Assembly: GCF_000337575.1 (NCBI RefSeq)
Contig: NZ_AOIM01000043.1
Span: 1-64,000, forward strand
DNA length: 64,000 nucleotides
Direction of reading: 5' to 3'
Source: Natrialba hulunbeirensis JCM 10989
GTDB lineage: Archaea; Halobacteriota; Halobacteria; Halobacteriales; Natrialbaceae
A model generated the notes under the pieces. That model saw only the letters and a list, made by a program, of their open reading frames with translations, did no database searches and was not told the DNA's origin. Below are positions 40,222 through 55,490 of the stretch, piece by piece. Each line of letters begins with the position of its first letter. Position 1 is the stretch's first letter. The translations under genes were made by a program, and so were the position numbers.

Positions 40222-40400
40222 AGTAGCATGTCAACTGCCCCGCGCACGGTGGCGCGGGGCTTGTCAGTGAACTCGACCTCTGCCGACGGTTAGTCGGACG
40301 GGACAAATCCCCGGTTCGGCGTCACCGTTCCTGACTTCAGGGCGAGTTGACTGTCGCCCGTCCGCCGCGACGACTGTAGGCCGCGACGGACGTACCGCCA
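40222..40400 (-). ncRNA. Putative TnpB guide RNA (reRNA/omega-RNA) region
   Basis: In characterised TnpB systems the guide RNA overlaps the 3' end of tnpB and extends across the element's end, with the guide taken from the flank. By position this covers the last coding part and the hairpin at 40237-40260. No direct sign of transcription is visible; limits are a guess. Confidence 0.3.
40237..40260. repeat. Element end hairpin, 9-bp stem, loop ACGGTG
   Basis: GCCCCGCGC at 40237-40245 pairs perfectly with GCGCGGGGC at 40252-40260. The loop is ACGGTG. The hairpin lies 3' of tnpB. Confidence 0.85.
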
Positions 40401-41516
40401 CCCAACATTCTTCGCACCCACGTAATCCGCATTCTGAGTTACATCGCACGACTCACACTCGAATTCCGCCTGTCGCACCCGATTCCCTTCGCTCGTATGC
40501 CCACACTCGGGACACCGGCGACTCGTGTTCTTCGGACTTACAAACTCGACACTAATCCCGTGGGCTTCAGCCTTGTACTCCACAAGGTCAACGAGTTGCC
40601 GGTGTGCCCACTGGTGGAACTCTTTCACGGGCGGCGCACGCTCTCGGATGTGCTTTAGATTCTCGAACGCGATGTATTCGCAGTCGTGTGTGCGTGCTTC
40701 TTCGAGAATCTGGTTAGCAACTTGATGAAGTTTGTCACGGAGATACCGTGACTCGCGCCCACTCATCTGCTGAATCGTCCGATGGGCGGATTGTGTGCCA
40801 GTCTGCTGAAGATTACCGCGAATCCGCTCTAACTCTCGATGCTGGTGTCGAAGCTCTCTGCCGGATGCGAAGTACGCCGTGCTGGTGGTGGCGATGTTTA
40901 CGATGCCGAGGTCAACGCCGAGAACTGTCCTGTCCTCGTCGTCATCCTGCCTTTCGACCTGCTTCCCGGGCTTGTCTTTTCGAAACCCGAGGTGGAGGTA
41001 GTATTCGCCATCACGCTTTGACAGCGTGGACTCCGTTACTTCCCACTCGTCATCGGTGAGGTATTCGTGTTGATACCCGTCTTCTTCGTCGGGAAGGTTC
41101 AGGTCACACCGAATCCGACCCTCGGCGGTGGAAAGCGAAACAGACCCGTCATCGAACAGCGTCATCGTCCGGGTGTCGTATTTCACCGTATTACTGGTGA
41201 ACTCTGGTCGGGACGTTTTGTAGTGTTCATCGAGGTCTTCGATTGCTTCGACACCATCGAGGGCGGCTGCGGCCTGATGGGTAGCAAGAATCGCGTGTTG
41301 ACTCCCGAGACGTATTTCCTCCAACACCGTGTCGTAGGCGAGGTCTTGGAGGTAGGTTTTCCGCGTTTCACCGTGTTCCCATCCGATGCGGCTACTGATG
41401 TTGCAGGCAGTTTTCCACTCGTTGATGGTGGTATCGAGCAAATCCTGTTGCTCGTCAGTGAGGATGGGGCGGGTGATTGCGGTGCGTCTCAGGTAGCCGT
41501 CTGTCACGAGTTTCAA
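40290..41516 (-). CDS. tnpB: RNA-guided endonuclease TnpB (IS200/IS605 OrfB)
   Basis: 408 residues. RuvC-like nuclease with its three acidic residues intact: Asp202 in LGVDLGIVN, Glu285 in IAFENLKHI and Asp364 in QNADYVGAKN. A zinc finger sits between the last two: CPEC at 335-338 and CESC at 354-357. This set predicts an active, guide-RNA-directed nuclease; in known cases TnpB cuts the excised donor site and so keeps the element in place. The start is a TTG (MKLVTDGY) at 41516; a GTG two codons on is possible. Confidence 0.93.
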   Translation of the reverse strand: MKLVTDGYLRRTAITRPILTDEQQDLLDTTINEWKTACNISSRIGWEHGETRKTYLQDLAYDTVLEEIRLGSQHAILATHQAAAALDGVEAIEDLDEHYKTSRPEFTSNTVKYDTRTMTLFDDGSVSLSTAEGRIRCDLNLPDEEDGYQHEYLTDDEWEVTESTLSKRDGEYYLHLGFRKDKPGKQVERQDDDEDRTVLGVDLGIVNIATTSTAYFASGRELRHQHRELERIRGNLQQTGTQSAHRTIQQMSGRESRYLRDKLHQVANQILEEARTHDCEYIAFENLKHIRERAPPVKEFHQWAHRQLVDLVEYKAEAHGISVEFVSPKNTSRRCPECGHTSEGNRVRQAEFECESCDVTQNADYVGAKNVGWRYVRRGLQSSRRTGDSQLALKSGTVTPNRGFVPSD

Positions 41517-41688: not shown

Positions 41689-41724
41689 AATCACTGGGAT
41701 CGCGTCAATCACTGGGATCGCGTC
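41689..41724. repeat. Exact 18-bp tandem duplication over the menE stop codon
   Basis: AATCACTGGGATCGCGTC occurs twice head to tail. On the minus strand each unit contains the end of MenE (ACG CGA TCC CAG TGA), so the duplicate adds a second copy of the last four codons and stop after the real one. Confidence 0.9.
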
Positions 41725-43400
41725 ATGTCGATGCCGACCTCGAGCAACCGCTCGCGAGCCGCCGCTCGGTCGACCGTTCCCGAGTGCGTCCGCGAGAGTG
41801 AATCGACCACGCCGATCGTCTTCGGACACTTGAATCCCGCCAGGTTGTCGTCGCAGTGAGCGCGGACGGACTCGAGTAGGCCCGAAGCCGAGTCTGCATC
41901 CGCGTCGACACCCGAAGCCGAGTTCGATTCCGACCCGTTCGTCTCGACGGGAACGACCAGCGCGCTCACGCGCTCGCCCCATTCTGGATCCTCGAGGCCG
42001 ACGACGGCTGCTGCCTCGATGGCCGGGTGAGTGCACAATACGTCGATCACCTCGCCGGGGTCGACGTTCTCGCCGCCGGTGACGATGCGGTCGCTCCGTC
42101 GGTTGAGGATCCACAGCCGACCGTCTTCGTCCCGGTAACCCACGTCGCCGGTCCGGAGTCCCCGCTTGCAGAACGCCCCCGTCGTGCGGTCCTCGTCGAG
42201 GTAGCCCGGCGTCACCGTCGGCCCGGCGACGACGATTTCGCCCGCCTCACCTGCCGGAACCGGTTCGCCGTCGTCACCCAGAATCGACACGTCGGTGACG
42301 ACGAGCGGCTGGCCAACCGTCCCCTCGTGTCGCGCCGCCTCCGCCGGCGTCGCGGTCGTGATCTGGGAAGCCGTCTCCGTCATGCCGTAGGTCGGGTAAG
42401 CGGGCACATCCGCTTCACGACAGCGTTCCAGAAACTCTGTCGAGGCGGGCGCACCGCCGAGGAGAACGAACCGGAGCGCGTCGGCTGGCTCCCAGCCGGC
42501 GTCGAGCAGGCGCTTGCACATCGTGGGAACCAGCGAGACCCCCGAAATATCGTACTCGTCCAGCACGCGGGCCGTCTCGCGCTCGTCGAACGTCCGCTGG
42601 ATCACCGCGGTCGTCCCGTACAGCGTCGACCGGATGACCGGCGCGATGCCGCCCATGTGATACATCGGGAGACAGCAGAGCCATCGATCGGACCGTTCTA
42701 CGCCCAGTCGAAACGCAGAGGCCGTCGCGCTCGCGACCAGGTTACCGACCGTCACCCGGACGATTTTCGGCTCGCCAGAGGTCCCCGACGTGAACATGAG
42801 CAGTTGCACGTGGCCGGACTCGAGTGCGACTGGGTCGACGGACGGGGTGGTGTCGGTTGCTGCGCTCGGTGTGCCGGTTGTATTGGTTGTGCCAGTCGTG
42901 TTGGTTGTTAAATCTGGTCCGTCACTCTCGTAGTCGACAGCCGCCGACAGCGCTGACACGCCGGCCCCCTCCGTCGTCGACTCGTCGACGGAGTAGGTGG
43001 GCAAGCGTTTGGAGTCAGCATCGGTCCCGAGTTCCACCGCGGTTGATTCGGTATCTGCCTCACAGACCAACGCGTCAAGGTCGAGTCGATCGACCTTTGC
43101 AGCTAACTCGTCGGTCGTCTCCCGAACGTTAAGCGGCGCGACGGTCACGCCGAGGCGCATCGCCGCGAAAAAGAGCATCGCGAAGGCGGGACGGGTGTCC
43201 ATCATGATCCCGAGACGGCCGCCACGGTCGACGTCGGAGTCGGACTCGAGTACCCCCGCGAGCCGATCCACCCGGCGATCGAACTCGGCGTAGGTCCACT
43301 CGGTGCCGGTGTCGACGTCGATCAGGGCCGACCGCTGGGGCGTCGCGGCCGCACGATGGGAGAGCAGATCCCGCGTCGGCCACTCGTGCGTACCGATCAT
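41709..43400 (-). CDS. menE: o-Succinylbenzoate-CoA ligase MenE
   Basis: Activates o-succinylbenzoate with ATP and CoA in menaquinone synthesis. 563 residues of the ANL superfamily: P-loop-like LLMFTSGTSGEPKIV, AYPTYGMTETAS, and the hinge segment YRDEDGRLWILNRRSDRIVTGGENVDPGEV. The C-terminal catalytic Lys is in AGFKCPKTIGVV. The ATG at 43400 overlaps the menC stop by four bases (ATGA). Acidic low-complexity insertions appear around 175-190 and in the last quarter. Its 3' end carries an 18-bp duplication. Confidence 0.92.
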   Translation of the reverse strand: MIGTHEWPTRDLLSHRAAATPQRSALIDVDTGTEWTYAEFDRRVDRLAGVLESDSDVDRGGRLGIMMDTRPAFAMLFFAAMRLGVTVAPLNVRETTDELAAKVDRLDLDALVCEADTESTAVELGTDADSKRLPTYSVDESTTEGAGVSALSAAVDYESDGPDLTTNTTGTTNTTGTPSAATDTTPSVDPVALESGHVQLLMFTSGTSGEPKIVRVTVGNLVASATASAFRLGVERSDRWLCCLPMYHMGGIAPVIRSTLYGTTAVIQRTFDERETARVLDEYDISGVSLVPTMCKRLLDAGWEPADALRFVLLGGAPASTEFLERCREADVPAYPTYGMTETASQITTATPAEAARHEGTVGQPLVVTDVSILGDDGEPVPAGEAGEIVVAGPTVTPGYLDEDRTTGAFCKRGLRTGDVGYRDEDGRLWILNRRSDRIVTGGENVDPGEVIDVLCTHPAIEAAAVVGLEDPEWGERVSALVVPVETNGSESNSASGVDADADSASGLLESVRAHCDDNLAGFKCPKTIGVVDSLSRTHSGTVDRAAARERLLEVGIDMTRSQ

Positions 43401-44488
43401 TCGTGCCACACCCCCTCGATGCCGAGCCCCTTCGCTTGCGGGACGACGGCAGCGCCGTTCTCGAGGAGGACGGGATCGCGTCCCAAATCATCGGCGAGCA
43501 GGTCGCCCGTCGCGAGACCGCATGCGGGGAGGTTCGGGATGGCTGCCGCGAGGTGGACGGCACCGGTCCGGGCGACGACGCCGTCGATAGTCGTCGTCAC
43601 GAGCGGTCTGACCCCGAGTTCCGTCACCCAGGCGGCGATCTTGCGCGCGATGTCGATCCCGCCGAGCGCCATCGGCTTCAGGACGAGGATGTCAGCAGCC
43701 TGTGCCTCACAGACCGCGTCGACGCCGTGCTCGAGTAGCCCTTCGTCGAGCGCGATAGAAAGCTCGCCTGCTGCGCGCTCGCGAAGCTCAGCGTGGCCCT
43801 TGAGTGCCCCCGCCGGAAGCGGTTGTTCGACGATCGACACGCCGAGGCCGTCGTCGACGAACGTGTCGATCGCCTGCGCGGCCTCGTCGAACGTCCAGGC
43901 CTCGTTGGCGTCGACACGTAACTCGACGTCGGGACCGACGACTTCGCGAGTTCGCCGAATCCGTTCGATGTCCGCCGAGACGGGGCGGCGGCCGACTTTG
44001 AGTTTGCAGCAGTCGAACCCGCGCTGGACGGCGTTTGCAGTCCGGTGTGCCGTCTCTTTCGGACTCCCGTCACCGATCGTCGCGTTCACCGGGACGCGGC
44101 CGACCATCGGCCCCTGTCCGACGTACCGATACAGCGGGGTCGCCTCGCCCGTCGCCCGGCAGTCCGTGATCGCCAGCGAGACGCCGTGTCTGGCCGCCGA
44201 AGCGCCCGCAGCCGCCTCGAGTGCGTCCTCCAGAGTTCCGCGATCACGGAGTGCGCGACTGGCGCGCTCGAGTGCGTCCTCACAGTCCGCAAGCGGCTCC
44301 GTCCAGCCGGAAAGTGGCGTCGCCTCGCCATAGCCAACCGTTGTGTCGTCGCCTGTTCGGTCCGCAAGTCGGAGCAGAAAGCCCTCGCGCGCATCGATCG
44401 ACCCCGACGCCGTCTCGAGTGGCTCTCTGAGCGGAAGCGAAAATCGTCGGTACTCGAGTTCGAACCGTGGGGCGTCGTCACCGGACAC
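43397..44488 (-). CDS. menC: o-Succinylbenzoate synthase MenC
   Basis: Dehydrates SHCHC to o-succinylbenzoate. 363 residues of the enolase superfamily: acid/base Lys in CCKLKVGRRPV, metal ligands in RVDANEAW, SIVEQPL and ALDEGL, second Lys in LVLKPMALGG. The GTG start abuts the menA stop directly (TAA then GTG), and the menC stop overlaps menE, so menA-menC-menE is an operon read as one unit. MenC family members can also be N-succinylamino-acid racemases, but the context decides. Confidence 0.92.
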   Translation of the reverse strand: MSGDDAPRFELEYRRFSLPLREPLETASGSIDAREGFLLRLADRTGDDTTVGYGEATPLSGWTEPLADCEDALERASRALRDRGTLEDALEAAAGASAARHGVSLAITDCRATGEATPLYRYVGQGPMVGRVPVNATIGDGSPKETAHRTANAVQRGFDCCKLKVGRRPVSADIERIRRTREVVGPDVELRVDANEAWTFDEAAQAIDTFVDDGLGVSIVEQPLPAGALKGHAELRERAAGELSIALDEGLLEHGVDAVCEAQAADILVLKPMALGGIDIARKIAAWVTELGVRPLVTTTIDGVVARTGAVHLAAAIPNLPACGLATGDLLADDLGRDPVLLENGAAVVPQAKGLGIEGVWHE

Positions 44489-45427
44489 TTAGATCACCAT
44501 CCCGGCGGCGAACAGCGCCGCGTACAGTGCGAGCAGTTTGCCGGTCGCCTCGAGCGCCGGGTTGAGCGCCTCGCCGTCGGTTCTGGCCCAGATCGTCTGT
44601 GCGATCATGGCCGCGTAGGGGAGCGAGACGAGCGGGAGCAGCACACTCACGGGGAAGCCCTCGCCGAGCCAGAGCCAGACAGGGACGAGATACGCGAGCG
44701 CAAGCATGGCAGTGTACTCGATGCGACTCCCACGATACCCGAGGCGGACCGCGAGCGTTCGTTTGCCGGTCTCGGCGTCAGTCTCGAGGTCGCGGACGTT
44801 GTTGACGATGATGATCGCCGTCGAGAGTGCAGCGATCGGGAGACTAACGAAAAACGCGTCCCAGGTAATCGTACCGGTAGGAATCGTCGTGATGAACGGC
44901 TCGATTGCGGCAGCGGCCTGCACGTAATAGGTGCCGACGACGGCGACGATGCCGAAGAAGACGAACACGAAGAGATCACCGAGGCCGTGGTAGCCGAGGG
45001 GGTAGGGGCCGCCGGTGTAGGCCCAGCCACAGAAGACGCTCACCAGGCCGATGACGAGAATCGGGAGGCCGCCGATGTAGACGAGGTAGGTGCCAGAGAG
45101 AATTGCCAGGGCGAACGTGACGGCGGTCGCGAGTTTGACCTGTTCGGCGGGGATGATTCCCGCCTGCGTAACGCGGGTGAACCCCTCGCGATCGTCGGTG
45201 TCTGCACCCTTGATCGCGTCGTAGTAGTCGTTCGCGAAGTTCGTCCCGATCTGAATTAACGCAGCGCCGATGAACGCCATCAGCGCCGGTCCGGGTGCAA
45301 AAACGCCGTCGTAGATCGCAAGCCCCACGGCGACGATGATCGGGGCTGCGGCCGCGGGCAAGGTCTGGGGGCGGGCGGCCAGCAGCCACGCCTTCGTCCG
45401 CGACATATCGACCTCAGCCGTACTCAT
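44489..45427 (-). CDS. menA: 1,4-Dihydroxy-2-naphthoate polyprenyltransferase MenA
   Basis: Prenylates DHNA to give demethylmenaquinone, a membrane step. 312 residues, about nine helices of the UbiA superfamily. The two Asp motifs are clear: NFANDYYDAIKGADTDD near residues 63-79 and NNVRDLETDAETGKRTLAV further on. First gene of menA-menC-menE. Confidence 0.93.
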   Translation of the reverse strand: MSTAEVDMSRTKAWLLAARPQTLPAAAAPIIVAVGLAIYDGVFAPGPALMAFIGAALIQIGTNFANDYYDAIKGADTDDREGFTRVTQAGIIPAEQVKLATAVTFALAILSGTYLVYIGGLPILVIGLVSVFCGWAYTGGPYPLGYHGLGDLFVFVFFGIVAVVGTYYVQAAAAIEPFITTIPTGTITWDAFFVSLPIAALSTAIIIVNNVRDLETDAETGKRTLAVRLGYRGSRIEYTAMLALAYLVPVWLWLGEGFPVSVLLPLVSLPYAAMIAQTIWARTDGEALNPALEATGKLLALYAALFAAGMVI

Positions 45428-46282: not shown

Positions 46283-46286
<4 letters not shown>

Positions 46287-47698
46287 TGCTCGGGAACGGT
46301 GAACTCGATTGGGGGCATCTCGAGGAAGGCTGTGTCGTACCCCTGATGGCGCGCGATCTGCGGTGGTGAGTCGATCGTAACCGTCACCGAATCGCCGGTT
46401 TCGATCTGTGCATCGTCGACCACCAGGCCGTAGTGGATGCCGTACTCGCTATCGAGGGTTTCTGCGAGCGCCGTGTCGGGACCGACGATCGTGTCGCCGT
46501 CGCGCTCGACGGTGACACTGAGCGCGGCGTCAGCGAGCGGAACGCGGTTGTACGGCGTTCGTGGGGAGACGAGGAGGTACTGGCCGGCACTACTACTGCC
46601 ATCGTCTCCGTCTCCGTCGTCAGAGAGCCGTTCCGCGTCCGCGGATCCGTCCTCGAACAGCGCTACGAGGATCGCCGCGTCGTCGCTTCGTGGGAGCGAG
46701 TCGTGGGCGGTCGGAACGCCCTCGACACCGGACTCGTCGCCGGCGGTAGCAAGGATCGTGCCGCCGTACTCCTCGATCCGGGGGAGAGCGGAGTAAGGGA
46801 CGTGTGCGTGGTCGTCGTGCTCGTCGTGGCCGTCGTGGTCGCCGTTGTGATCGTGTTCCTCCTCGTGATCGTGATCTTCGTCGTCGTGGCCATCGTGGTC
46901 TCCGTGCTCACCGTGATCACCGTGATCCATCGGTTCCAGCGCGTCACGGTCCCCCCACTGCTCTTCGTCGAGATACTGGACGCCGCCGATCACCTCGTGG
47001 CGGAACTCGTCGTCGTACTCGAACTCGAAGGTCGCGCTCACGCGCTCGTCGAGTCGGCCCGCGAGGTCGCCGGTCGTTCGCACCGAGAGCGGCGGAATCG
47101 TCACCTCGACAGTGTACGTGCCGTCTTCGGGAAGAGTGACGTTATCGCCGAAGTGAAAGCCCATCTCCTGGGAGATCATCGACCACGGCGAGACCGGTGA
47201 CCCAACCTGCTCGTCGCCGTCGTAGACGCGAATCTGGACGCCGTCGTCGACTGGCAACACGGTCCCCGTCTGCTGATCCCAGAGCGTGAACATCATGTGG
47301 ACGCCACGGCCGTCGTCTGGACTCTCGCGTTCGACGGCGTCCTCGCCGCTGCCAGCGATGGTCCAGAAATCGTGCGGGTACGAGAGCATCGGCCCGAGCA
47401 TCATGTCGCCGGCTTCGACCGGATCGAGCATCCGCATGGCCTCGCGGTGAGTCGGGAGGTAGACCGCGTTCGGCGGGTCTTCCACCTCGATCGTCGGCCG
47501 GCCGTCGCCGTAGTCCTCGTCGGCACCGTTCTCGTCGCCGTTTTCGGCGTCCGGATCGTCTTCGTCCTCGTCTTCCTCATCGTCGTCACCGTCGAGACAG
47601 CCCGCGAGTGCGAGCACACCCGTTGCTGCGCCCGTTTGTGCGATGAGCGTCCTGCGGTCGATCTCCATCTCGTCTGTGGTCGGCGTGATGTCCTGCAT
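46283..47698 (-). CDS. P19/Tp34-like iron-binding Tat lipoprotein with His-rich insertion
   Basis: 471 residues from the ATG at 47698: Tat signal EIDRRTLIAQTGAATGVL with lipobox Cys34 (LALAGC), an acidic linker, then a domain with YLPTHREAMRMLDPVEAGDMM, the signature of P19/Tp34 periplasmic iron-transport proteins. Residues 258-299 are nearly all His, Asp, Glu and Gly and look metal-binding. The last 170 residues (AILVALFEDG..., PRTPYNRVPLADAALSVTVERDG) form another beta domain. Stop overlaps the next gene's start. Partner of the heme-protein gene upstream. Confidence 0.82.
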
Positions 47699-47738
47699 GG
47701 TGTCTCTGTCGTGTTTGCTGGTTCGTGTCTCGTGTCCC

Positions 47739-47773
47739 GGTTCTCGGTTCTCGGTTCTCGGTTCTCGGTTCGC
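47739..47773 (+). repeat. 7-bp tandem repeat (GGTTCTC)4 plus variant
   Basis: Four exact GGTTCTC units and a fifth with GGTTCGC, starting 40 bases upstream of the P19-like gene's ATG and ending just before the 3' end of the DyP-like gene. Non-coding. Confidence 0.85.
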
Positions 47774-47795
47774 GTCTGTCGAAAGACTGTACTGA

Positions 47796-49112
47796 TCAGG
47801 CGTCCGGATTCGCCGCCGGCAGCGCGCGAAACCCCCGCGGCGGGAGCAGGTAGTTCCCGCGCCGGTTGACGAAGATGTAGTGGAGGATCCCGTTGTTCGC
47901 CGAGGCAACGTCGAGATCAGCACCAGTCATCGCCTCGCGTACCCGGACGAAGTCCGCAATCTCGTGCTGGAGCGAGACGAAGTGCAGTCCCGGCCGGTCG
48001 CCATCGATTGTGTTGAAATCGCGGCGCAAGAGCGGCGGGTCGCCGTCCTCGCGCCCGCGTGCCGCCTTCTGGGCGTGTCCAACGACCCCTTCCTGTCTGG
48101 CGTCGGTCGTCGTCGCCTCGATCCGCTCGTCGGTCAGCCCGCTGTCGCTTCCCAGTTCCTCGCCGACGTCACCGACGAGTTCCTCCGCGGCGTGTTCCGG
48201 GCTGAACATCTTCGAGACGCGCTGGTAGTGGTTCTCCTGCTCGAACCAGACCTCGAGTTGAATGTCCATCGAGGAGACGTGCTGCGTCGTCCCATCGGCG
48301 AACGGCCCGTCATCGATAGTCACGCGGTCTTCACTGGCCTGCGTGCGGTCGAAGCCCGAGCGAAAGCCCATGAAAAACGGCGCGTCCTCGGGGACCGCGT
48401 CGGGAACGCTTGAGACCTCCGTGTGCTCTGCGGGGAGTCCCGCACCCACGAACCCGGTCCGCCGGTTCTCGTCGACGCGTTCGAAGACCGCAGAGAGGTC
48501 GGACTCGAGTACAACACCGTTGCGTTCCGGCTCCTCCTGGTCGCCGAACAGTCCCTCCTCGACTTCGAGGACGACCTCGGGGTGGTTGCTCGCGAGGTGG
48601 AGCAGGGCGTCGAATTCGTCGAATGCGGGGTCTTCGCGGGACGTGAGCGCCGCTGGTTCGGGAAGGTCGACCCCTTCGGGGAGGTCCTCGTCGAACCGCT
48701 CGAAGTACGACGGCGTGTAGCCGAGCGTGAACAGCAGTCCGTCGGTGCTCCACTCGTAGGCACGCTCGAGCGTTCGGAGGGTAGACTCGGTAGTCTCGCG
48801 GGCGTCAGCAGTCGGTTCTCCGTCGGCGGTCGCACGTTCAGTCAGCGCCAGCGGGAGCAAGACGTGGTGTGCTGGCGGCTCGACGTTCCCGTCGTCGTCG
48901 CGTGTCGCGAACTCGTTCCAAGCATGTTGGCGAGCGGGTAGCGAGTCGGGGTCGTCGGTTCCCGAGGGAACGTTGTTCTCCTCGCCGTTCTCGTCACTAC
49001 TCATGTCGAGACACGCACTGAGTGCAGTCGCGCCGCCGACGGCGACGAGGGCGCGGGCGTACTCCCGGCGGGAGAGCGTGGACCGATCGGGGAGCGTCAC
49101 TAGTATCACCAC
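47796..49112 (-). CDS. DyP-like heme protein, Tat lipoprotein (EfeB/DUF7405-like)
   Basis: 438 residues. Tat signal TLSRREYARALVAVGG with lipobox Cys34 (LSAC) and a DyP-type double-ferredoxin body: VLLPLAL, LLFTLGYTPSYFERF, a late VGHAQKAARGRED with the probable proximal heme His346, then LLRRDFN and LHFVSLQHEIADFVRV. The usual distal GXXDG reads GFRSG at 249-253, so the catalytic Asp is replaced by Ser. Possible GTG starts at 49112, 49109 and 49100. Next to the P19-like lipoprotein, it fits iron or heme handling outside the membrane. Confidence 0.78.
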   Translation of the reverse strand: MVILVTLPDRSTLSRREYARALVAVGGATALSACLDMSSDENGEENNVPSGTDDPDSLPARQHAWNEFATRDDDGNVEPPAHHVLLPLALTERATADGEPTADARETTESTLRTLERAYEWSTDGLLFTLGYTPSYFERFDEDLPEGVDLPEPAALTSREDPAFDEFDALLHLASNHPEVVLEVEEGLFGDQEEPERNGVVLESDLSAVFERVDENRRTGFVGAGLPAEHTEVSSVPDAVPEDAPFFMGFRSGFDRTQASEDRVTIDDGPFADGTTQHVSSMDIQLEVWFEQENHYQRVSKMFSPEHAAEELVGDVGEELGSDSGLTDERIEATTTDARQEGVVGHAQKAARGREDGDPPLLRRDFNTIDGDRPGLHFVSLQHEIADFVRVREAMTGADLDVASANNGILHYIFVNRRGNYLLPPRGFRALPAANPDA

Positions 49113-49315: not shown

Positions 49316-50218
49316 TCAGTAGTGCCACGGATAGTCGTCGAACTCAGGATCGCGCCCTTCGACGAACGCGTCGCGACCCTCCTTCGCCTCGTCGGTCATG
49401 TACCCAAGTCGGGTCGCCTCCCCGGCGAACACCTGCTGGCCGACCATGCCGTCGTCGGTCATGTTGAACGCGTACTTCAGCATCCGCATCGCCGTCGGAC
49501 TCTTCGCATTGATGCGCTCGCCCCACTCGAGTGCGGTCTCCTCTAACTCCTCGTGTGGCACCGCCTCGTTGACCATCCCCATCTCGGCGGCTTCCTCGGC
49601 GCTGTAGGTCTTTCCGAGGAAGAACACCTCGCGGGCCTTCTTCTGGCCGATCTGCTTCGCGAGGTAGGCCGAGCCGAAGCCAGCGTCGTAGCTGGCCACG
49701 TCGGGATCGGTCTGGAGGAACTTCGCGTGCTCCTCGCTGGCGAGGGTCATGTCACAGACGACGTGCAGCGAGTGGCCCCCGCCGACGGCCCAGCCGGGAA
49801 CGACGCAGACGACGACCTTCGGAATGTGTCGGATAAGGCGCTGGACTTCGAGAATGTGGAGGCGACCTTGCTCGGATGCGCGGGCCGTCTCGCTCTCCTC
49901 GTCCTCGCCGGTGTACTGGTAGCCATCGTCGCCGCGGACTGTCTGGTCGCCGCCAGAACAGAACGCCCAGCCGCCGTCCTTCGAGGAGGGGCCGTTACCG
50001 GTCAGCAGGATACAGCCCACGTCGGTCTGGCGTTTGGCGTGATCCAGCGCGTCGTACAGTTCGTCGACCGTCCCCGGACGGAAGGCGTTGCGAACGTCGG
50101 GGCGGTCGAACGCGATGCGAACCGTCCCAGAGTCGACTGCGCGGTGATAGGTGAGATCGCGAAAGTCGAACTCGTCGACCGGCTCCCACCGGTCTGCGTC
50201 GAAGCATTCCGAAACCAT
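49316..50218 (-). CDS. menB: 1,4-Dihydroxy-2-naphthoyl-CoA synthase MenB
   Basis: Closes the second naphthoate ring from o-succinylbenzoyl-CoA. 300 residues of the crotonase fold: NAFRPGTVDELYDALDHA, oxyanion loop GWAFCSGGDQTVRG, VPGWAVGGGHSLHVVCDMTLAS, and the MenB-type segment SYDAGFGSAYLAKQIGQKKARE with the active Asp. Promoter TATA-like box at -28. Monocistronic, away from menA-C-E. Confidence 0.95.
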   Translation of the reverse strand: MVSECFDADRWEPVDEFDFRDLTYHRAVDSGTVRIAFDRPDVRNAFRPGTVDELYDALDHAKRQTDVGCILLTGNGPSSKDGGWAFCSGGDQTVRGDDGYQYTGEDEESETARASEQGRLHILEVQRLIRHIPKVVVCVVPGWAVGGGHSLHVVCDMTLASEEHAKFLQTDPDVASYDAGFGSAYLAKQIGQKKAREVFFLGKTYSAEEAAEMGMVNEAVPHEELEETALEWGERINAKSPTAMRMLKYAFNMTDDGMVGQQVFAGEATRLGYMTDEAKEGRDAFVEGRDPEFDDYPWHY

Positions 50219-54851: not shown

Positions 54852-55490
54852 CTAACTATATCGCTCCTCTTGCCACGGGTTCGCCGTCTCGGAGTAGCCG
54901 CGTCGTTCCCAGTATCCGAGTTCGGGCTCGGTGAGGAACTCGACCCCATCGACCCATTTCGCCCCCTTGTAGGCGTACTTGTGCGGGGTGACGACCCGGA
55001 GGGGGCCGCCGTGGTCTGCGGGGAGGGCCTCCCCATCGTACGCCCACGCGAAGAGGACCTCCTCGCGCATGCAGTCCTCGAGTGGCAGGTCCGTCGTGTA
55101 GTTGTCGAGTGCGGAGAACATGACGTGGACGGCGTCGTCCTCGACACCGGCCAGATCGGCGAGGGCGGGGAACGGAACGCCGGTGAACTCGCAATCGAAC
55201 TTGCTCCAGCCGGTGACGCAGTGGAAGTCCTGGCGCTGGGTTTCACTCGGCAGGTCGCGGAACTCGTCCCAGGACAGCGAGAGTTCGGTCTCGACGGCAC
55301 CGGTGACGGTGAACTCCCAGGTATCGGGGTCCCAGTCGGGCGTGCCGCTCTTCGAAAGGACGGGGAAGGCAGTCGTTTCGCGCTGGCCGGCAGGAAGTCG
55401 GTCGTCGCCAAACTCGTGGTAGAGGTCAGTTACGTCCCGGACGGACGTGCCGGCGTCGCCGTCTGTCGTCTCGGTCGACTCCGTGGTCAT
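54852..55490 (-). CDS. Cytosolic sulfite-oxidase-family molybdopterin oxidoreductase
   Basis: 212 residues with the sulfite-oxidase/YedY core: molybdenum-binding Cys91 in FHCVTGWSKFDC, then TGVPFPALADLAG, and HGGPLRVVTPHKYAYKGAKWVDGVEFL. No signal peptide, so cytosolic, and no heme domain. Related proteins reduce protein or small-molecule sulfoxides, or oxidise sulfite; substrate not readable. 32 bases from the menF start on the same strand. Confidence 0.88.
   Translation of the reverse strand: MTTESTETTDGDAGTSVRDVTDLYHEFGDDRLPAGQRETTAFPVLSKSGTPDWDPDTWEFTVTGAVETELSLSWDEFRDLPSETQRQDFHCVTGWSKFDCEFTGVPFPALADLAGVEDDAVHVMFSALDNYTTDLPLEDCMREEVLFAWAYDGEALPADHGGPLRVVTPHKYAYKGAKWVDGVEFLTEPELGYWERRGYSETANPWQEERYS

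Follow-up and report, generated by a model that had tools for sequence, protein, structure and literature searches.

Two neighboring genes of the haloarchaeon Natrialba hulunbeirensis JCM 10989 encode members of the protein families DUF7405 and DUF7350, and we rate the chances as about even that this pair forms a class-wide haloarchaeal system for handling copper outside the cytoplasm. Of the two, copper handling is more likely than iron uptake. The copper reading is based on homology, residue conservation, co-occurrence and linkage of genes, and on the lack of matches to FTR1-type permeases and PCuAC proteins. The genes lie in a window of 64,000 nucleotides (positions 1 to 64,000 of contig NZ_AOIM01000043.1), and the coordinates of their features are collected in Table 1.

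Table 1. Features of the DUF7405-DUF7350 gene pair and of the adjoining gene, with their positions in the window
Feature	Position	Strand	Evidence
DUF7405 gene (P0002, 438 aa, GTG start)	47796..49112	-	PF24152 E 2.2e-151; DyP profile-profile E 6.4e-10
GFRSG, residues 249-253, in the position of the GXXDG motif of DyPs	48354..48368	-	hhalign
His346, probable heme ligand, counterpart of EfeB His329	48075..48077	-	invariant, 76/76
Arg363-Arg364, aligned with EfeB Arg347-Arg348 (distal Arg)	48021..48026	-	76/76, hhalign
Gene of the lipoprotein with the P19-like tandem and DUF7350 (P0001, 471 aa, ATG start)	46283..47698	-	
N-terminal P19-like domain, approximately residues 86-236	46991..47443	-	fold match Z 11-13
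His/Asp-rich linker, residues 258-299 (42 residues, 14 His by eye)	46802..46927	-	
C-terminal DUF7350 domain, residues 329-467	46298..46714	-	PF24041 E 5.1e-43
Cohesin-domain gene with C-terminal anchor-like segment	45540..46286	-	Cohesin PF00963 E 3.7e-7

Organization of the gene pair

The DUF7405 gene is located directly upstream of the DUF7350 gene on the same strand. Position 47698 is the likelier start of the DUF7350 gene because the longer frame, extending to 47923, overlaps the upstream gene. Read by eye, both proteins begin with a twin-arginine motif and a lipobox (SRREYARAL...LSAC in the DUF7405 protein and DRRTLIAQ...LAGC in its partner), and the PF24152 match covers the whole mature part of the former. 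The pair is flanked by menB (49316-50218) on one side and by menA, menC and menE (41709-45427) on the other. A preliminary description of this DNA had reported two adjacent Tat lipoproteins on one strand between parts of the menaquinone locus. Both observations hold, but among the 55 loci compared the men flanks are limited to the window's lineage, whose nearest named relatives are Natrialba species with 93-95% identity. A function of the pair in menaquinone synthesis was rejected because the men neighbors are confined to this one lineage.

The cohesin-domain gene and the DUF7350 gene share 4 bases at the stop of the latter, and in 18 of the 55 loci a cohesin gene is the second gene downstream of DUF7405. 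Its product is a possible third partner, in the window's lineage only. The same genome also encodes a second DUF7350 tandem protein, which stands alone on contig C38 (L113:5750-7048). Elsewhere in the window, a gene for a TnpB-family RNA-guided endonuclease (40290-41507, NF040570) is located beside the men locus, and a short molybdopterin oxidoreductase-domain protein (54852-55490, PF00174), with no obvious signal peptide by eye, is encoded next to menF.

DUF7350 proteins as tandems of P19-like domains

P19 proteins serve iron uptake and can bind copper as well. The structure model of the DUF7350 protein (mean pLDDT 70.7) consists of two well-predicted beta domains joined by a linker of low confidence. 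Foldseek ranks 1-19 for this model are held by FtrA/P19 and FetP chains, and comparison by VIA yielded Z values of 11-13 against FetP, Tp34, HftA, FtrA and P19 over model residues 24-174. The N-terminal domain aligns with two P19 proteins in hhalign with an E value of 3.5e-8, and the match of the protein to PF10634 (Iron_transport) reaches 21.8 bits against a cut-off of 21 (E 2.4e-4). The P19/Tp34-like sequence mentioned in the preliminary description is thus backed by fold and profile-profile comparison.

The two domains of the protein also resemble each other (hhalign E 6.5e-10, score 63, compared with 25 for a reversed and 19 for a shuffled control). Direct comparison of the C-terminal domain with P19 gives a weak match (E 0.0046) in which the HYG and Arg-His motifs align. 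We read the protein as a tandem duplication of P19-like domains that have been fused, with the C-terminal DUF7350 domain as a second repeat that keeps His422 and Arg450-His451.

The His/Asp stretch between the repeats has the length described earlier, and its composition varies greatly among relatives. The linkers of 22 out of 41 partners contain between 2 and 28 His residues; the other 19 contain none, and most of these carry a short Met motif similar to PMEMDMMP. Judged from these sequences, the His-rich stretch appears to be a lineage-specific form of a variable linker, and the 19 His-less partners rule it out as the functional heart of the protein. When the PDB was searched with the profile of the partner, the first match was a zinc ABC binding protein with an E value of 0.016; it falls on this low-complexity stretch and was not taken as homology.

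Metal-site residues are numbered as in Campylobacter jejuni P19, which fits Escherichia coli FetP with an offset of 24. The copper ligands of P19 we take to be His42, His95 and His132, and Met88/90 were taken from the titles of PDB entries. The copper-type residues His42, Met88 and His95 have their counterparts in His134, Met174 and His182 of the N-terminal domain, each in all 39 distinct partner sequences. The iron patch of P19 has been described as Glu44, Asp46 and Asp92 (PMC9174327). The counterparts of Glu44 and Asp92 are Met136 and Met179, again in 39 of 39 sequences, making all five of these residues of the N-terminal domain invariant; at position 138, the counterpart of Asp46, Thr is present in 26 of the 39 and an acidic residue in none. 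The Arg-His motif has been lost from the N-terminal domain and kept in the C-terminal one, where His451 is found in all 38 sequences with a letter at this position.

A remote relationship of DUF7405 to DyP peroxidases

Single-protein sequence searches of the PDB gave nothing significant for either protein, and profile searches gave E values of 0.04 for DUF7405 (with DyP) and 0.02-0.06 for the DUF7350 partner (with FtrA). Because these matches were weak, profile-profile comparison was used. An alignment of 55 DUF7405 proteins matches an alignment of 12 bacterial DyPs (12 of 13 stretches, L104 being left out for its wrong frame) with a probability of 96.6 and a score of 79, against 17 for a reversed control and 21 for the best of 40 column shuffles of the DyP alignment. 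The best PDB profile matches of DUF7405 are DyPs named 'deferrochelatase', which presumably are Streptomyces DtpA-type proteins. The AlphaFold model of DUF7405, built with 15 sequences, has a mean pLDDT of 36.5, and no fold claim rests on it.

The Dyp_perox_C domain (PF20628) matches the window's DUF7405 protein below the cut-off (E 0.012) and other members above it. This domain is matched with E ≤1e-3 in 15 of the 194 Halobacteria genomes; in 9 of these the matches coincide, by coordinates, with listed DUF7405 matches. Those of genomes G051 and G131 are DUF7405 paralogues, and locus L088 is another in which Ser replaces the Asp. No canonical DyP was found in the Dyp_perox_C loci read (those of G055, G083 and G088 left out). 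These comparisons argue that DUF7405 is a remote relative of the DyP-type peroxidases (PF04261/PF20628), and the DyP body noticed in the preliminary description is real in this remote sense.

The active-site residues were compared in an alignment of 83 rows, which contain 76 distinct cores and at 80% identity form 53 clusters, a set biased to high-scoring matches and chosen loci. GFRSG aligns with GFKDG of E. coli EfeB, which places Ser252 on Asp235. Position 252 is occupied by Ser in 45, Ala in 30 and Thr in 1 of the 76 distinct sequences, and the distal Asp of GXXDG is found in none of these and in none of the 53 clusters. The replacement that had been pointed out for this one protein is a trait of the whole DUF7405 family. 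The LLRR segment aligns with MLRR of EfeB; the Arg pair and His346 are invariant across the 53 clusters, with a spacing within the range of bacterial DyPs, and Glu261 is present in 75 of the 76 sequences. His346, the likely heme residue of the preliminary description, is a probable ligand whose role we infer, because the profile alignment is 3 columns off EfeB His329 at this point. By eye, many other conserved residues of DUF7405 have no DyP counterpart.

The consequence of losing the Asp can be gauged from the Klebsiella enzyme KpDyP, whose D143A variant still forms Compound I, although approximately 1000-fold more slowly (at pH 7, 1.9e3 versus 6.2e6 per M per s), and whose rate increases with pH (PMC6153280). 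Therefore, DUF7405 is predicted to be a slow peroxidase and not certainly an inactive one. The earlier suggestion that the protein works without peroxidase chemistry does not follow from the loss of the Asp alone.

Distribution and co-occurrence of the two families

Of 194 Halobacteria genomes, 172 carry DUF7405, and these represent 61 of 65 genera; none of 203 genomes of the same phylum outside this class has it. The phylum sample comprised 246 genomes, and the 35 that match DUF7405 all belong to its 43 class genomes. DUF7350 is present in 167 of the 194 genomes, and Haloferax volcanii is among the species that have both families. Both families occur together in 167 genomes, DUF7405 alone in 5, DUF7350 alone in none and neither in 22, as counted by eye from the profile-match tables (7 genomes without DUF7350 and 2 without DUF7405 were assigned by their absence from all match rows). 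Three of the five genomes with DUF7405 alone (G013, G017 and G103) have only divergent paralogues (E ∼1e-107 to 1e-115), which in G013 and G017 stand in other gene contexts. By eye, 167 of the 169 genomes with main-type DUF7405 also carry DUF7350, a coupling that points to a common metal task.

The same pattern is evident within the genus g22, in which the families are patchy: By eye, DUF7350 accompanies main-type DUF7405 in 5 of 6 genomes and is found in none of the 16 genomes that lack it. The two genes are direct neighbors in 34 of 55 loci and no more than three genes apart in 40, these loci having been chosen rather than drawn at random.

Some DUF7405 paralogues occur in other settings. 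Those of L115:5659-8692 and L119:4521-7486 are encoded beside an FG-GAP repeat protein and without DUF7350; in L115, which was scanned for it, the repeat protein also has a UnbV_ASPIC domain. A second group (L116:5720-7063, L117:5816-7033 and L118:5862-7445, with GFxxGRKGTQ in L117 and L118) is found among genes that by eye resemble a molybdopterin oxidoreductase and, at two of the loci, also an aldehyde ferredoxin oxidoreductase.

Neither DUF7405 nor DUF7350 is named in any paper of the literature searched, and searches on haloarchaea with DyP and iron and on haloarchaeal copper chaperones returned no title or abstract describing the pair. A survey of copper proteins in Haloferax mediterranei lists SCO proteins, and the terms 'P19' and 'DyP' are absent from its text (PMC9240420).

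Genomic context

Matches to the FTR1-type permease (PF03239) are found in 0 of 194 Halobacteria genomes and in 4 of 14 control genomes; matches to PCuAC (PF04314) are found in 0 of 194 and 3 of 14, respectively. SCO proteins are encoded in 157 of the 194 genomes. Comparing the 150 best-scoring matches of each family, at least 18 of the SCO matches, in 18 genomes, lie within 3 kb of a DUF7350 or DUF7405 match, where 0.33 would be expected, and at least 21 lie within 6 kb, where 0.66 would be expected. By eye, the linked loci among these matches span 8 genera at 3 kb and 10 genera at 6 kb. In the window's own genome, which comprises 48 contigs, SCO is encoded on contigs C41 and C9 and the pair on C43, so the genes are not linked there. 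A strict association of SCO with the pair was ruled out: By eye, the 16 genomes of genus g22 without main-type DUF7405 still carry SCO, which therefore does not need the pair.

A few loci have a TlpA-like thioredoxin, DsbD_2 or the oxidase subunit COX2 near the pair, and the locus of Natronococcus jeotgali (L084) has both a DsbD_2 protein and SCO. Next to DUF7405, 4 of the 55 loci have a ferritin-like gene, and two loci encode a Peripla_BP_2 binding protein nearby. No iron permease was found among the identified recurrent neighbor families of the DUF7405 loci.

Comparison with known systems

The closest working parallel to the haloarchaeal pair, with parts of the same kinds drawn from other protein families, is the sco-ecuC-SLI_4212-dtpA cluster of Streptomyces lividans. 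There, one operon encodes Sco, the copper chaperone ECuC, which is a lipoprotein, a putative transporter of copper and DtpA, a Tat-secreted DyP that a copper enzyme requires for its maturation when copper is limiting. The authors of that study propose that DtpA oxidizes Cu(I) bound to Sco (PMC4736821). Both systems combine a Tat-exported DyP-fold protein with a lipoprotein metal chaperone, putative in the haloarchaea, outside the cytoplasm. However, DtpA belongs to the canonical DyPs and has peroxidase activity, whereas DUF7405 lacks the distal Asp; the chaperone is ECuC in one case and the P19-like tandem in the other; and SCO, which is part of the Streptomyces cluster, is linked to the pair only in some haloarchaea.

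EfeUOB likewise has a DyP-fold protein with a Tat signal (EfeB, a deferrochelatase/peroxidase) and a metal-binding partner, but the GXXDG Asp is missing from DUF7405, the partner is not EfeO and EfeU/FTR1 has no match in the class. DUF7405 scores 12.2 bits against the EfeB equivalog TIGR01412, for which the cut-off is 428. The P19, FetP, FtrA and Tp34 proteins (PF10634) share the fold of the N-terminal DUF7350-protein domain and the counterparts of His42, Met88 and His95. The DUF7350 protein differs from them as a fused tandem with Met in the iron patch, the Arg-His motif in the C-terminal repeat only and no FTR1 partner. PCuAC, a copper chaperone whose gene adjoins sco1, resembles the tandem in type and place, as an extracytoplasmic copper-type protein with His and Met near SCO; the likeness extends to these traits and not to any shown sequence relation. 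The P19-like tandem is possibly a functional stand-in for PCuAC. On a Paenarthrobacter plasmid, a PCu(A)C gene directly precedes a DyP gene (L103:1-1271).

A proposed role in copper handling and its alternatives

The mechanism that we infer can be outlined as follows. The lipid-anchored DUF7350 tandem would bind copper at the P19-type site formed by His134, Met174 and His182, and replacement of the iron-patch acids by Met136 and Met179 would make this site more Cu(I)-like. The C-terminal repeat might provide the Arg-His motif that is missing from the N-terminal repeat. In the window's lineage, a Met-rich linker may have grown into a His/Asp-rich metal buffer. DUF7405, with its DyP fold, would probably use His346 to hold heme, Arg363/364 lying on its distal face, and may set the redox state of the DUF7350-bound copper or slowly use peroxide. 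SCO-type chaperones could then receive the copper and deliver it to cuproproteins, for example the heme-copper oxidase.

The preliminary description viewed the proteins as an iron pair. In such a scheme their function on the cell surface would resemble that of EfeO/EfeB or P19: DUF7405 would extract or oxidize iron, and its P19-like partner would hand the metal to a transporter other than FTR1. P19, FetP and FtrA relatives do serve iron uptake (PMC10783030, PMC6083913, PMC9174327), EfeB, a DyP relative, belongs to EfeUOB, the His/Asp linker is a possible binding site for iron or another metal, and ferritin-like and Peripla_BP_2 genes are occasional neighbors. We nevertheless regard iron acquisition as unlikely, given the lack of FTR1 in all 194 genomes, the replacement of the acidic iron patch by Met and Thr and the recurrence of SCO as a neighbor. 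No permease is adjacent to the pair at the window locus, as had been noted, and the linked permease that relatives might have supplied is not among their identified recurrent neighbors.

DUF7405 might instead be a working surface peroxidase or H2O2 scavenger in which the Arg pair and possibly Glu261 take over from the missing Asp, while its partner only protects it or stores metal. The conservation of these residues and of His346 is compatible with such an enzyme, several Natrialbales relatives are alkaliphiles and the D143A variant of KpDyP retains a reaction that gains from higher pH. The roughly 1000-fold slower formation of Compound I in KpDyP without the Asp (PMC6153280) and the nearly constant presence of DUF7350 with main-type DUF7405, a sign of a task with metal that the two share, make us doubt this explanation. 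It is very improbable that DUF7405 keeps the DyP fold without heme, as a protein that binds the P19-like lipoprotein or has a structural role beside it: The shifted register of His346 and the many conserved residues without DyP counterparts would suit this idea, but the invariance of His346 and the Arg pair in 53 clusters, at a DyP-like spacing, argues against it.

The copper reading can be carried one step further. Haloarchaea might have swapped the bacterial PCuAC for a fused P19-like pseudo-dimer whose iron site has become a Cu(I) site. The redox partner for copper would be a DyP-fold hemoprotein in which the change of Asp to Ser or Ala has sacrificed rapid cleavage of peroxide, and the two together would constitute an undescribed, class-wide route of cuproprotein maturation. 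This extended proposal is tentative, and we would sooner bet against it than for it. With a copper-handling pair, two Pfam families without described function that are present in most Halobacteria gain a joint role that can be tested. If the reading is true, a DyP fold can work without its catalytic Asp, and a domain known from iron uptake has been re-used for copper. It would also show how archaea without PCuAC may supply copper to SCO and to the respiratory oxidase.
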